A DNA stretch of 64,000 nt from Halomontanus rarus (GTDB lineage: Archaea > Halobacteriota > Halobacteria > Halobacteriales > Natrialbaceae), in contig NZ_CP071598.1 in NCBI RefSeq assembly GCF_017357405.1, positions 992,001 to 1,056,000 of the forward strand. Direction: 5' to 3'. The notes beneath the pieces are model-generated. The model was given only the letters and a program-made list of their open reading frames with translations. It ran no database searches and was not told the DNA's origin. Positions 19,655 to 52,590 of this stretch are shown piece after piece. Every line of letters begins with the position of its first letter. Within the stretch, counting starts at the first letter, position 1. A program made the position numbers and the translations under genes.

Positions 19655-20812
19655 ATGTCGAACACAGGGGACGACCTCACCATCGGACTCGCCGGCCTCG
19701 GCGCACAGGGGATCGCCTACGCTCATCGATTCGGCCGGTTCGATCACACGTATATCGGGGCCGACTTCGATTCGAGCGCCAGGGCCGAGTTCGAGAACGT
19801 TGTCGGCGGAGCGGTCACCGAGAACCCGAAAGACCTGCTCGAGTACGATCTGGACGGATTGATCATCGCACTCCCGCCGAAGTTTCACGAACCGATCGCC
19901 ACTGCGGCGCTCGAATCGGGCGTCGACGTCCTGATCGAAAAGCCGGTCGCTCACACGCTCCACAGCGCTCGGCGGATCGAAAATGCCGCGGACGAGAGCG
20001 ACGCGAACGCGATGGTCGGGTTCTACACCAAGTTCTACAAATCTAGCTCGATTTTGCTTGGATACGTCGCCGACGGCTACTTCGGCGACGTAACGCACGT
20101 CGATGCCGTCATCGAGCGTCGACGCGGCTTGCCCGGTCGCGGGACGTGGTTCACCTCGCAAGATATCGCCGGCGGCGGTGCGCTCATCGACATCGGAATA
20201 CACGCTCTCGACCTCGTGATGGCAATCTACGATTACTCCCCCATCGAATGGACCTGGGGCCAGACGACGACGCAGTTCGGAAACAAAGACGATTATCTGT
20301 ATCTGGAGACGACATCCGAACACAAAGATACCGACCTGTTCGACGTCGAAGATGCGGCCTCCGTGGTAATCGAGTTCGCCAACGGCGGAACGGTGAATCT
20401 CAGGGTCGCGTGGGCGACGAACAACCGCGAACGACACGAGTATCGAATCCACGGAACCGACCGCGGCGCTCGTCTCGATCTGACGCAGGTGTACACGGCA
20501 ACCGTCGGTCGAGAAGAGACGGATATCGTCCAAGAAGACGATATTACCGATCGGGAGATACTCGAACTGTACGACGTTCGGTCCATCGGAGAGAATCACT
20601 TCGTCGATTCGCGGGTCGTCGCCAAGGGTGTCGACGCGTACGAACGGCAGTTGTCGGCGTTCTTCGACGGGATCGGCTCGAGGACTCCGTACGAGAAAAA
20701 CTCGATACGACACGGTGTCAAAGTGCAGGAGGTCGTCGACTCGATCTACCGATCCGCCAGCAAAGGCGAACCGGTACCGACGGATTCGTTCGACGATATC
20801 GACCGCCGGTAG
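19655..20812 (+). CDS. Gfo/Idh/MocA family oxidoreductase
   Basis: 385-residue NAD(P)-dependent dehydrogenase-like protein. It starts with a Rossmann segment (IGLAGLGAQGIAYAHRFG). The catalytic-lysine motif is IEKPVAH near residue 95, and DIAGGGALIDIGIHALDLV is the substrate-domain motif. It shares RRG-PG-G-WFTS and the C-terminal I-RSA pattern with the genes at 23687 and 26061, so the three form one subfamily. An internal segment around YLYLETTSEHKDTDLFDVED is longer than in the other two. The IclR gene follows after 31 nt, with its TATA element abutting this stop codon. Confidence 0.9.
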   Translation: MSNTGDDLTIGLAGLGAQGIAYAHRFGRFDHTYIGADFDSSARAEFENVVGGAVTENPKDLLEYDLDGLIIALPPKFHEPIATAALESGVDVLIEKPVAHTLHSARRIENAADESDANAMVGFYTKFYKSSSILLGYVADGYFGDVTHVDAVIERRRGLPGRGTWFTSQDIAGGGALIDIGIHALDLVMAIYDYSPIEWTWGQTTTQFGNKDDYLYLETTSEHKDTDLFDVEDAASVVIEFANGGTVNLRVAWATNNRERHEYRIHGTDRGARLDLTQVYTATVGREETDIVQEDDITDREILELYDVRSIGENHFVDSRVVAKGVDAYERQLSAFFDGIGSRTPYEKNSIRHGVKVQEVVDSIYRSASKGEPVPTDSFDDIDRR

Positions 20813-33827: not shown

Positions 33828-34955
33828 CTACGGCTCGTCCTCGAGTATCTCACTCACCCGGTCGGCCACGTCTGCGGTCTGAATGTCCGAATAGGACTCG
33901 TGAGTGACGTCGACCGACTGGTGGCGCAGCGCCGACTGTGCGAGTTCGGCACTCCCCCTCGTGTACAGTTCGTGACCGAGTCCACGGCGTGCACCGTGGG
34001 GTTTCAGGTACACGTTTTCGTCCTCGTCGTACTCGATTACGTCGCTTTCGTCCGCAATCCGCGCCGTGAGCCGCTTCAGGATCGACCGCACGCCGTTCGT
34101 CGATAGCGACGGCGGCGCGAGTTCGTGCTCGCGGAGCAGTTCGTCGATATCGCGCCGCTCGAGCATCGTTTCGAGACGTTCGTCCGAGAACGCCTCAGCG
34201 AGCGCTCGCCGTTTGGACGGGTAGTGATTCGTCGGAAACACCGGCCACGTCTCGGTCGGCGGCTCCAGAACCCGTCGGTATCGCTCGAGTGCCGACGCCG
34301 CCCGGTCCGGAAGCTGTGCCGTCTGGTAGGACTGGGACTTCCCGAAGACGGTGATGGTGTTTCCCTCGACGTCGACGTCGGCCCAGGTGAGGCCGTCGCG
34401 TCGGTCGTCACCCGGAACGGCGAAGACCTCCGCGCCGCGGACGCCCGTGAATCCGAGCACCGCAACGATCGCCCGGTCGCGCAGCCGTTCTCGAACGATC
34501 GAAGAGGGGGCGATGGGGGGATCGAGGGCGCTGTCGACTCGCCGGGTGCAGTACTCGAGGGCGACTCGCCGTTCCCCGGGCGTCCAGAACTGTCGCTCGC
34601 GCTTGCCGTCGTCGTCGGGGAGCAGTTCGGTCGCCCGGTTGGCGTCGGCCGGATTCGTGTCGAGGCAGTTCTCCCGGACGGCGAACGAGAGGAACGCCCG
34701 CACGTACGCGAAGTACGTTCTGGCCGTCCCGGCCGAGAGGTCTCGGTCGTCGCGGGCGACCTGCCGGTTGAGATACCGGCTGTACTCGCGACAAAGATCG
34801 GTGTCGACCGCGTCGAACGTCTCGAGTGCGAACTGCTCGCGCCACTCTCTGAGGACGGGTTCGACGACGAGTCGCGAACGATCGGTCAACGTCTCGAGGT
34901 AGTGGTCGACGACGGTGTCGACGGGCTGTACCCCCGGGGTAGTGTGTTCAGTCAT
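33828..34955 (-). CDS. Tyrosine-type site-specific recombinase/integrase
   Basis: 375-residue XerC/D-like recombinase. The N-terminal SAM-like domain (about 10-110) contains SAGTARTYFAYVRAFLSFAV. The catalytic domain retains the full set: Arg in FTGVRGAEVF, Lys in VFGKSQSYQ, HxxR in KPHGARRGLG, the second His in LRHQSVDVT and the nucleophile Tyr in HESYSDIQ. It cuts and rejoins DNA, probably for integration or dimer resolution. The start at 34955 (MTEHTTPG) is preferred to the open extension to 35030. A 28-bp 11-6-11 palindrome lies about 130 nt upstream and may be its target. A related but altered gene is at 51370-52590. Confidence 0.9.
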   Translation of the reverse strand: MTEHTTPGVQPVDTVVDHYLETLTDRSRLVVEPVLREWREQFALETFDAVDTDLCREYSRYLNRQVARDDRDLSAGTARTYFAYVRAFLSFAVRENCLDTNPADANRATELLPDDDGKRERQFWTPGERRVALEYCTRRVDSALDPPIAPSSIVRERLRDRAIVAVLGFTGVRGAEVFAVPGDDRRDGLTWADVDVEGNTITVFGKSQSYQTAQLPDRAASALERYRRVLEPPTETWPVFPTNHYPSKRRALAEAFSDERLETMLERRDIDELLREHELAPPSLSTNGVRSILKRLTARIADESDVIEYDEDENVYLKPHGARRGLGHELYTRGSAELAQSALRHQSVDVTHESYSDIQTADVADRVSEILEDEP

Positions 34956-35083
34956 GGTGGTCTCGGAAATCGTGTCGGCAGTCGCCCGGCAGTGGAAGTT
35001 CCGGCCCGAATCGGCGGTCGATCCGCGCACTCGGCGGAATTCGTTCCTTGGAATCCGCGTACGGCACCGGCCTACCTAAAGGT

Positions 35084-35111
35084 ACTGTGTCAAACTCGTC
35101 TTTGACACAGT
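35084..35111. other. 28-bp 11-6-11 palindrome, dif-like recombination site candidate
   Basis: Two perfectly complementary 11-bp arms, ACTGTGTCAAA and TTTGACACAGT, flank an asymmetric 6-bp centre CTCGTC. Complementarity stops exactly at both edges of the arms. XerCD/XerA dif sites share this 11-6-11 architecture, and the site is 129 nt upstream of a complete tyrosine recombinase gene. Alternatives are an operator for the recombinase gene or a hairpin. The other bases between 34956 and 35361 show no gene. Confidence 0.5.
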
Positions 35112-35361: not shown

Positions 35362-36375
35362 TCAGCCGGTTATCTCCTCGAGGTGGCGGCCCAGTCCAGT
35401 TCCGATCGCGTCCATCCCGGCATCTCCCGGATGGAGCACGTCCGCCGTCAACCCGGAGAGATCCAGCAAATCGGTCCCCTCTACGAGAGAGAGGTTGGTG
35501 TGAGACGAGTCCGCGACGACGTCGCGTACCACCTCGCGGAACGCCTCGGCGCGGTCGGCGTCGCCCGACTCCGTCGCGTCCGCGAAGTACGGGAAGAGGG
35601 TGATACACGCGATCGGCTTTCGCGGGTGTGCGCTCGCGACCGTCTCGACGAACGCCTCGACCCGGTCGTGGAACTCCGCCACCGAAAACTCGGCGTTAGC
35701 CATGTTCACGGACATCGCGAGCGTCGCGACGTCCCAGTCCTCGCGGCTCGCGATGTACTCCGCCATCGCGGATTCGCAGTACGCGGACCCGGAGCAACCG
35801 AAGTTCAGCGCGTCGTATCCGCAATTCTGAGCGACGTGCGTGACGTAGTTCGTGTGCGTGGCCGAGGCCGCTGCGCCCTCGGTGATGGACGTCCCGTACG
35901 CGAGGTAGCGCCGGTCGGGCAGTTCCTCGGGTGCCGGCGGCCGACAGTCGCCGGTGACGTCGTGGAGGGCGACCGCGGGTACGCGCTCGAGCAGGACCCG
36001 ACAGACCCGCGGATCGAATCGTCCCGTGCCGTCGGTGACGGTGAGTTCGCGGAGTCGGTCCGGAACGCCGAACGTGAGCGTCCGGGGCGTCGGACCGATC
36101 TCGGTCGGCTCCCACGGCTGGAACGCCCCCCAGAACGGACGCACCTGCGTCGGTTCGGGCGCCGAGAGAGTGATCTCGACTTCCGCCCCCGCCTCGGGAA
36201 CGAACCGGATTTCGCTCCCGGTGGGGTGTCGAACGCGGCCGCGGGCCATTTCGTTCAACTCCGCCCCCACTGTAGCGGGAACGCGACACAGTCGATCGCC
36301 GCTCTCGTCCCACTCGGCGGGCACCGTTTCCGCGACGTTGTGCAGCGAGACCGAGGGATACTCCGCTAGTTCCAT
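35362..36375 (-). CDS. SGNH/GDSL-type hydrolase
   Basis: 337-residue predicted esterase or deacetylase. The N-terminal 140 residues form a beta-rich domain (ETVPAEWDESGDRLCRVPAT...) like that of SsfX3-type GDSL enzymes. The catalytic domain starts with YGTSITEG (nucleophile Ser near residue 162), then NFGCSGSAYC, MSVNMANAEF and DVLHPGDAGM with the Asp-His pair near the end. No signal peptide, so it is cytoplasmic. It diverges from the GH2 gene across about 140 nt. It could remove acetyl groups from imported oligosaccharides; this is an inference from context. Confidence 0.88.
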   Translation of the reverse strand: MELAEYPSVSLHNVAETVPAEWDESGDRLCRVPATVGAELNEMARGRVRHPTGSEIRFVPEAGAEVEITLSAPEPTQVRPFWGAFQPWEPTEIGPTPRTLTFGVPDRLRELTVTDGTGRFDPRVCRVLLERVPAVALHDVTGDCRPPAPEELPDRRYLAYGTSITEGAAASATHTNYVTHVAQNCGYDALNFGCSGSAYCESAMAEYIASREDWDVATLAMSVNMANAEFSVAEFHDRVEAFVETVASAHPRKPIACITLFPYFADATESGDADRAEAFREVVRDVVADSSHTNLSLVEGTDLLDLSGLTADVLHPGDAGMDAIGTGLGRHLEEITG

Positions 36376-51369: not shown

Positions 51370-52590
51370 GTGACGACCGTCGAAGACACGATCGACACCT
51401 ACCTCGAGCGCAAAGCCGTCGGCGATCCCGACGGACCGGGTGCAGGTACCTACGCCTCGAACGCCGAGTCCATCCTCCGGCGGTGGGGCGAGTGGCTCGC
51501 CCACGAACACGACGTGACTTCGATCTTCGACCTCGAGACCGAGCACATGCGATCGTACGCTGTCGAACTCGACGAGCGGACCGAGGCGGGGACGTACACG
51601 GCGTCGACCGCGGGAACCTACTACGCGGTCGTCCGGGCGTTTCTCTCCTGGTGCGTCCACGGCGGCATCCTCGAGACGAATCCCGCCGCGGTCGACAGTG
51701 CGACCGAGGCCCTGCCGACCGACGACGACGCTCGCTCGCGAGGCCAGTTCTGGACCAGCGACCAGCGACGCGCCCTCGAGTCCGCCGTCCGAGAGCGGGC
51801 GCTCGAGGCGACCGACGCGGCCCGAAGCGAGCGGATCGGGCGACTGCGCGACTACGCGATGGTGGCCGTCCTCGCACACAGCGGCGCCCGCGGCGCCGAA
51901 CTCTTTCGGGTTCCAGAAGACGACCGGCGGACCGGGGCGACGTGGGCCGACGTCGACTTCTACACCGGCTCGATTCGCGTACTGGGGAAATCACAGCGAC
52001 TCGAGGATGCCCCCCTGCCGGCGGCGGCGCGGACGCCGCTTCGTCGGTACCGCGTCGTGCTCGACCCGCCGTCGAACGAGTGGCCACTGTTTCCGACGCG
52101 TCACGCCCCGTCGATCGCCCGACGGGTCCGATCGGTGTTGGCGGATCGAGATCACGGAGCGGACGAAGTCGACGCGATCCTCGAAGGAAAGACCGCCACG
52201 GAGGTCGCTCGCGAGCGTTCGATCGCCCCGCCGGCGATCACTACCGAAGGTGCGCGGTCGATCCTCCGACGACTCTGCGAGACCGCGGACGTCGACGTCG
52301 ACGGCGACTACCTCAAGCCCCACGGTGCACGTCGGGGGCTCGAGGAGGAACTGTACCGTCGGGATCCGACGACCGCCCAGACCGCGCTGCGTGAGACGTT
52401 CCTCGAGCAGTCGATCGCGGTGGTTGAAGAGGGTCAGGGCTACGGCTACGGACAGGGGCAGGGGCAGGAGCAGGGCCAGAAACAAGGTCAGAGCCGGGAC
52501 CGCGGTCGGAGTCGCGGACAGGAACGAGGACCGCCGGAACTCGAGTTCAGAACCGAAAGCCGAGCCGACGAGCACGACGACGACGAGTGA
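51370..52590 (+). CDS. Tyrosine recombinase-like protein lacking the catalytic C-terminus
   Basis: About 406 residues from the GTG at 51370 (VTTVEDTIDTYLERKAV). It parallels the recombinase at 33828-34955: SAM-like domain with STAGTYYAVVRAFLSW, Arg in HSGARGAELF, Lys in LGKSQRLED, HxxR in KPHGARRGLE. Where the paralogue has RHQS and HESY, this one reads TALRETFLEQSIAVVEEG, so the second His and the nucleophile Tyr are missing. A Gly/Gln/Arg-rich tail (GYGYGQGQGQEQGQ...) and an acidic end follow. The frame is open to ATG 51178 and beyond, but that extension is Arg-rich; an ATCTTTA tract at 51152-51158 would suit a start at 51178, so the start is uncertain. The 388 nt before 51370 hold no other gene. 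Confidence 0.8.
   Translation: MTTVEDTIDTYLERKAVGDPDGPGAGTYASNAESILRRWGEWLAHEHDVTSIFDLETEHMRSYAVELDERTEAGTYTASTAGTYYAVVRAFLSWCVHGGILETNPAAVDSATEALPTDDDARSRGQFWTSDQRRALESAVRERALEATDAARSERIGRLRDYAMVAVLAHSGARGAELFRVPEDDRRTGATWADVDFYTGSIRVLGKSQRLEDAPLPAAARTPLRRYRVVLDPPSNEWPLFPTRHAPSIARRVRSVLADRDHGADEVDAILEGKTATEVARERSIAPPAITTEGARSILRRLCETADVDVDGDYLKPHGARRGLEEELYRRDPTTAQTALRETFLEQSIAVVEEGQGYGYGQGQGQEQGQKQGQSRDRGRSRGQERGPPELEFRTESRADEHDDDE
52434..52486 (+). repeat. In-frame CAGGGC-like hexamer repeat encoding a Gly/Gln tail
   Basis: Repeated CAGGG(C/G)-type hexamers encode alternating Gly and Gln where the recombinase paralogue has its catalytic tyrosine region. Similar short-period tracts recur at 51223-51262 and in the noncoding stretch 52613-52675 after the gene. 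Confidence 0.6.

Follow-up and report, generated by a model that had tools for sequence, protein, structure and literature searches.

Several site-specific recombination systems offer close comparisons for the locus described here. In the accounts of the archaeal XerA/dif system of Thermococcales and Sulfolobales, a single recombinase acts with a 28-bp site of two 11-bp arms and a 6-bp core, and in Sulfolobales the predicted dif site lies close to xerA (PMC2958812, PMC8371274). The bacterial recombinases XerS and XerH are given as 356 aa and 354-362 aa (PMC5357621), against 375 aa for the protein studied here. Cre/loxP is described as belonging to the P1 plasmid prophage (PMC11724359), and the Vibrio cholerae sites dif1 and dif2, on replicons of one cell, are described as differing in their central regions (PMC2533119). 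For haloarchaea, a 2020 review of Haloferax volcanii takes 12 xerC/D-like genes to suggest possible dif sites, with a role in replication termination that, in its words on the subject, remains to be determined (PMC7776575). In the open-access literature, among the titles and abstract beginnings of the matches listed, no recombinase-linked dif-like site on haloarchaeal plasmids was described.

The locus lies in a window of 64,000 nt (the whole stretch of DNA analysed, C2:992001-1056000) of Halomontanus rarus, whose 5.17-Mb genome comprises two contigs, C2 of 1.144 Mb and another of 4.0 Mb. A palindromic site and the tyrosine recombinase gene beside it probably form a plasmid-borne, single-recombinase Xer/dif-like module, and its task would probably be multimer resolution.

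The window site and its recombinase

Table 1. Coordinates of features in the window
Feature	Position	Strand	Remark
28-bp dif-like site	35084..35111	(-)	single-copy, dif-type geometry, member of a site family
Left arm (forward strand)	35084-35094		second arm in recombinase sense
Core	35095-35100		6 bp
Right arm (forward strand)	35101-35111		first arm in recombinase sense
TATA-like TTTA, putative recombinase promoter	35077..35080	(-)	3 nt downstream of the site, recombinase sense
Tyrosine recombinase, 375 aa from ATG	33828..34955	(-)	Phage_int_SAM_5 and Phage_integrase
GDSL-type esterase/lipase gene	35362..36375	(-)	ends 250 nt before the site; context only
Paralogue of the recombinase	51463-52401	(+)	49% identical, same family
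Further perfect inverted repeat	20063-20092		11-bp arms, loop ≤12

On the forward strand the site reads ACTGTGTCAAA-CTCGTC-TTTGACACAGT, its coordinates checked as exact, and in the sense of the recombinase gene ACTGTGTCAAA-GACGAG-TTTGACACAGT. As the original prediction held, it is a perfect 11-6-11 palindrome (11/11 arm pairs) in which pairing ends at the arm edges, the flanking bases 35083 (T) and 35112 (G) being unpaired, and it lies 129 nt from the recombinase ATG at 34955; an alternative GTG start at 35030 would give a recombinase of 400 aa. Two 11-bp inverted arms around a 6-bp core are the mark of dif-type sites, as is a single copy per replicon. No other copy with ≤3 mismatches was found in the 64-kb window or the whole 5.17-Mb genome, which is thus free of scattered copies, and 100 shuffles of the window gave 0 with a match. 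The site also adjoins its own recombinase gene, as XerS- and XerH-type sites do.

With no second copy in the genome, the site is neither half of an attachment pair nor part of a switch, and two roles named in the original prediction fall away. An attachment site of an integrated element calls for an attL/attR pair bounding the insertion; here there is one copy, with the gene order of Halomontanus rarus TS33 on both sides. An invertible or excisable switch under recombinase control would be in keeping with the nearby tyrosine recombinase, but it requires a second copy in the same molecule, and none with ≤3 mismatches exists, which makes this reading extremely improbable.

The neighbouring gene encodes a tyrosine recombinase by its score for PF00589 (34.5 bits against a cut-off of 27.1) and by its catalytic residues, R173, K206, H320, R323, H345 and Y355. 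In an alignment of 40 sequences the first four are invariant and H345 and Y355 are present at ≥90%, so the complete catalytic set predicted for it was confirmed; roles were assigned by the R-K-H-R-[H/W]-Y rule as given in PMC2958812. By NCBIfam NF040815 it is not a XerA, with 40 bits against a cut-off of 220, and none of the 11 matches to this profile in the genome exceeds the cut-off (0/11), the top one, at 137.5 bits, lying on C1. A single-sequence search with the window recombinase returned no relatives of solved structure; a profile search matched XerD and XerA chains to it at E 1e-7 to 6e-3. Its paralogue in the window has no recognisable palindrome within 400 nt upstream, and the gene in the matching TS33 stretch carries the annotation recombinase XerD.

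A chromosomal dif on C1 was also considered. Seven of the eight recombinase-matching loci there were scanned and held no comparable palindrome, the best having 8 or 9/11 pairs at scattered positions, and the candidate was dropped.

Sites before related haloarchaeal recombinases

The palindromy of the window site is by itself unremarkable, as the 64 kb hold one further perfect inverted repeat of this kind (Table 1). It stands out from chance because related recombinases are preceded, at a similar place, by sites with this geometry. Relatives at E ≤1e-80 occur in 49 of 125 Natrialbaceae genomes, and 83 of 114 matched frames were kept, the rest duplicating the first 150 residues of kept ones. A family-type 28-mer lies ≤400 nt upstream of 68 of the 83 recombinases by a criterion fixed only once sites had been seen; for the same criterion, 50 dinucleotide shuffles gave 0.9 of 83 on average and never more than 3. 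For the other 15, including the window paralogue, the 400 nt upstream contain no recognisable site. Left arms differ within this common geometry, and ACTGTGCATAA, ACTGTGTATTA, ACTGTACTAAA and ACTTGGTTAAA, among others, were found upstream of relatives. The predicted dif geometry and its link to a recombinase therefore extend to the family, most members of which have a site beside them.

Searches by site pattern gave a similar picture. With ≤3 mismatches, the window pattern was found in 7 of 125 genomes (exact in 5; 0 sites for the reversed control) and the ACTTGGTTAAA pattern in 42 of 125 (1 site for the reversed control). A recombinase domain in the same orientation starts ≤900 nt downstream of 65 of the 73 sites found by pattern, a few of these domains being low-scoring and decayed in appearance. 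Seven of the remaining eight have no such gene in the stretch read; the other, on G047:C62, is followed by what by eye resembles the decayed start of a recombinase gene, and an intact relative lies 3.3 kb further on. Viral contigs contained 0 matches to three exact site patterns, and a viral origin of the sites was rejected on this result.

These counts bear on whether the palindrome is a transcription terminator or a product of chance, a reading that its position downstream of the GDSL-type gene and the similar-sized palindrome elsewhere in the window might suggest. No T run follows the site, however, the genes upstream of sites that stand before recombinases vary, and 68 of 83 were found where chance gives 0.9. 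When one genome from each of 84,980 species was searched, the exact window arms were found in three stretches, two from haloarchaea and one from a Bacteroidaceae MAG. In the MAG the stem continues beyond the window-type arms, and the 6.6-kb stretch yielded no such recombinase. A terminator or chance origin is accordingly hardly credible for the window site.

The arrangement is also found outside the Natrialbaceae. Twelve further named plasmids were hand-picked from 60 of 261 records, 11 of them from outside this family, and seven have ≥9/11 pairs at -66 to -68 of the annotated start; the seven come from five other families, Haloarculaceae, Haloferacaceae, Haladaptataceae, Halococcaceae and Halobacteriaceae. 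A Natronococcus plasmid has 8/11 pairs at -67 and a Halobacterium plasmid 9/11 at -311. The other three have no upstream 11-6-11 site among the best palindromes listed, and one of these, from Halorussus, has 8/11 pairs around an 8-nt loop at -68. A ParA gene lies ≤1 kb from the recombinase in 3 of the 12, with about 1.2 kb read on each side.

Some individual loci depart from the common arrangement. At L138, L139, L140 and L149 (G019:C18, G064:C3, G105:C6), the recombinase frames after the sites score only 195, 195, 52 and 29 bits and have a truncated or decayed appearance; a site, it would seem, can outlive its gene. On G019:C18, two sites before poorly scoring frames lie 35 kb apart. L147 (G047:C7) and L146 (G041:C25) carry ACTTGATTAAATCAGAGTTTAACCAACC sites and no family recombinase was found in the stretch; on G047:C7 two such sites are 90 bp apart, and ACTTGATTAAATCAGAGTTTAACCAACC sites perhaps belong to another system. 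At L067 (G042:C10) the recombinase start is adjoined by ctgtctcttatacacatct, which we take to be a transposase-adapter sequence and which is possibly an assembly artefact. The family recombinase at L010/L011 (G001:C11) appears to be split in two, and the stretch holds a 14-bp inverted repeat, GCGACTCCTCCTTG...CAAGGAGGAGTCGC.

Promoter, arms, core and replicon context

Features around the site were compared in 54 other loci chosen by a letter pattern. Since the pattern does not admit ACTGTGTCAAA, ACTTCGTCAAA and similar arms, the set lacks the window's own clade, and loci whose top-scoring palindrome was another are omitted as well. TTTA stands exactly 3 nt past the site in 51 of the 54, the same offset as in the window, and 53 of 54 have an ATG or GTG between +36 and +40 (reading frame unchecked); the ATG used in the window lies farther off than in these loci. 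TTTA with a nearby start is presumably a leaderless haloarchaeal promoter. A protein bound at the site would overlap the expected position of TFB and cover the expected BRE, and since the site ends 3 nt before the TATA-like TTTA, autoregulation of the recombinase through the site is likely.

The operator, named in the original prediction as the main alternative, is thus probably also true as a second role. That it is the only role, the recombinase binding the palindrome solely to repress its own promoter while acting elsewhere, is unlikely: the fixed promoter spacing and the covered BRE would fit it, but the 11-6-11 geometry with an unpaired core would not, nor would a genome that offers the recombinase no other such site (≤3 mismatches) on which to act.

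The arms and the core evolve differently. Among the 54 sites the arm pairs match in 31-54 and the three inner (core) pairs in 8, 1 and 12, chance being about 13.5; the outer edge is blurrier, with 36, 23 and 12 for the next three pairs and 38 two pairs farther out. Arm differences follow recombinase divergence with rho 0.75 (Mantel p 0.001), a correlation that reflects shared descent in part and for which flanks were not used as control; for core differences, rho is 0.10 (p 0.065). In pairs with a 4-fold divergence of 0.05 the core differs by 0.58 per nt (4 pairs), and at 0.16 by 0.48 (73 pairs), the close pairs being non-independent and the lowest band consisting of 4 pairs. The arms differ by 0.00-0.04 per nt in the same pairs. 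Rapid change is not restricted to the core, because the 40 nt left of the site, at 0.30 and 0.36 per nt, also exceed the 4-fold sites; this left-flank divergence arises from cassettes that sit in different surroundings. In 64 pairs chosen for similar left flanks, the core differs by 0.46, the left flank by 0.19 and the right 80 nt by 0.09. L019 and L020, the clearest pair, 99.5% identical to the left and 97.8% to the right over 1.2-1.3 kb, have identical arms and cores that differ at 3/6 positions. Cores that diverge beyond 4-fold sites in close pairs speak against an operator as the sole role.

Of the recombinases that have the window's exact arms, 6/6 keep core GACGAG, although these are 55-99% alike; the G103 recombinase, 64% identical to that of the window, has other arms and core TACGAG. 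A simple core-password prediction, in which replicons of one cell avoid equal cores, failed: identical cores occurred in 5 of 27 within-genome pairs against a permutation mean of 2.6, and so were not rarer than chance, and in identical-arm pairs alone 1 of 13 was identical against 1.8 expected (P 0.41). G027 carries identical 28-bp sites on two contigs (G027:C3:214607 and G027:C4:57465), a ready-made natural case for asking if replicons with equal sites exchange.

Some cassettes are of mixed origin. Left of the site, L136 (G056:C8) shares 98.2% identity with L135 (G056:C5) across 1.2 kb, the match reaching 2.6 kb, against 78.2% to the right; compared with L137 (G058:C90), it is 98.6% identical right of the site and has no match beyond 51 nt to the left. 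With L135 the change-point maps somewhere from -1 to about +54 relative to the site; with L137 it coincides with the left edge of the site. Judged from these alignments, the L136 cassette is a mosaic whose parts join at the site; homologous recombination in the conserved leader could also account for the L136/L135 breakpoint. Hybrid sites were also seen, one on G047:C62 with one window-type arm and the other of the ACTTGG type, and one on G111:C2 with a window-type arm and an arm unlike any type seen. A breakpoint at the site and unlike arms within one site are further points against a pure operator.

The modules reside largely on secondary replicons. In 26 genomes of ≤10 contigs, 38 of 39 recombinases lie on contigs ≤1.15 Mb (a hand count, with contig counts partly rounded), and haloarchaeal replicons as large as 1.1 Mb have a recombinase of their own. 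The exception, L134 (G088:C1:1132790), is on a chromosome-sized 4.0-Mb contig, and its cassette could be an integrated plasmid. On TS33, recombinases of three of the four plasmids checked have arms of their own, ACTGTGCATAA (916 kb), ACTGTGTCAAA (402 kb) and ACTGTGTATAA (59 kb); unnamed3 (323 kb), whose recombinase is outside the 83-frame set, has no such palindrome. A plasmid from another strain, KZCA124, offers no more than 8/11 pairs, at -279.

Two 25-kb pieces of the window match the 402-kb TS33 plasmid, unnamed4, at 97.6% and 97.4% (100% and 93% covered). Both neighbours of the window site are the same there, the GDSL-type gene thus being present in TS33 too. Three of six C2 stretches compared match the 916-kb plasmid and three the 402-kb plasmid, a comparison to which three searched stretches, of 14 fetched, contributed. 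On these matches C2 combines stretches of two separate TS33 replicons. It carries two cassettes, the second with different arms and a counterpart on another TS33 plasmid, where its surroundings are also matched (87% covered). Both cassettes keep their TS33 surroundings, so neither site was the point at which the replicons were rearranged. Rearrangement at the window site was rejected, the flanking gene order on both sides being that of unnamed4; gene order compared between the strains is thus conserved and reveals neither a rearrangement nor an attachment pair at this point.

These results also weigh on a site for replicon fusion, integration or excision, one that joins or transfers plasmids with dimer resolution as a secondary effect. 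The mosaic cassettes and hybrid sites would suit it, as would the occurrence in other genera of sites identical to the 28-bp window site and the union of stretches from two TS33 plasmids in the window's replicon. Yet the site is single-copy, without an attL/attR pair, the TS33 comparison places the rearrangement away from both cassettes, and only 1 of 39 recombinases is on a chromosome-sized contig, so that fusion as the main role is quite unlikely.

Proposed function and known systems

Multimer resolution by a plasmid-borne Xer/dif-like module remains the preferred reading. Two recombinase protomers would bind the 11-bp arms of the palindrome, and the strands would be cut, to judge from XerA/dif, where the 6-bp core meets the arms. 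A dimer formed by homologous recombination between replicon copies would contain the site twice, and a crossover between these two sites would give monomers back. With the TATA-like box directly beside the site, recombinase bound to the site probably represses its own gene as well. A replicon with its own enzyme need not depend on that of its host. We infer binding, strand exchange and resolution from other systems, and by analogy with XerA/dif, XerS/difSL, XerH/difH and Cre/loxP, resolution is the most likely outcome. The chromosome-dimer resolution site of the original prediction thus stands in part: resolution is the best-supported option, and the replicon is the 1.14-Mb secondary contig, not the 4.0-Mb one.

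A broader view, possible but doubtful, is that the family forms an addressable recombination code in which each replicon has a recombinase and private arms, the fast-changing 6-bp core acts as a password for exchange or fusion, and the site doubles as a BRE-proximal operator, the enzyme being made only while its own site is free. If true, such a code would set the rules by which these archaea merge, split and stabilise megaplasmids.

The analysis supplies concrete, testable recombinase-site pairs for many haloarchaeal replicons. Such pairs, which recur on other haloarchaeal plasmids, may keep joined circles separable, and the resolution module, if right, would explain how large archaeal plasmids stay monomeric. 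It would also provide recombination tools of differing specificities that should function in high salt, and markers for tracing the joining or splitting of replicons.

Among known systems, XerS/difSL of streptococci and lactococci and XerH/difH of epsilon-proteobacteria likewise unite one recombinase and an adjoining site in a single module. Those systems are bacterial and chromosomal with imperfect arms, whereas the haloarchaeal module is mostly found on secondary replicons and has its 11-6-11 site against the promoter. XerA/dif is chromosomal, and with 40 bits the window recombinase falls well short of the 220 that NCBIfam requires for XerA. Cre/loxP of P1, which is used for P1 multimer resolution, is also a case of a plasmid with its own tyrosine recombinase and site; the likeness noted is one of organisation, and loxP has 13-bp arms and an 8-bp core, unlike the 11-6-11 site here. 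In Vibrio cholerae one XerCD pair serves both dif1 and dif2, whereas haloarchaeal replicons bring their own recombinases, and no avoidance of equal cores within a genome was found among them. The haloarchaeal module is probably a variant of this known kind of system that is plasmid-borne and promoter-abutting and has a single recombinase.
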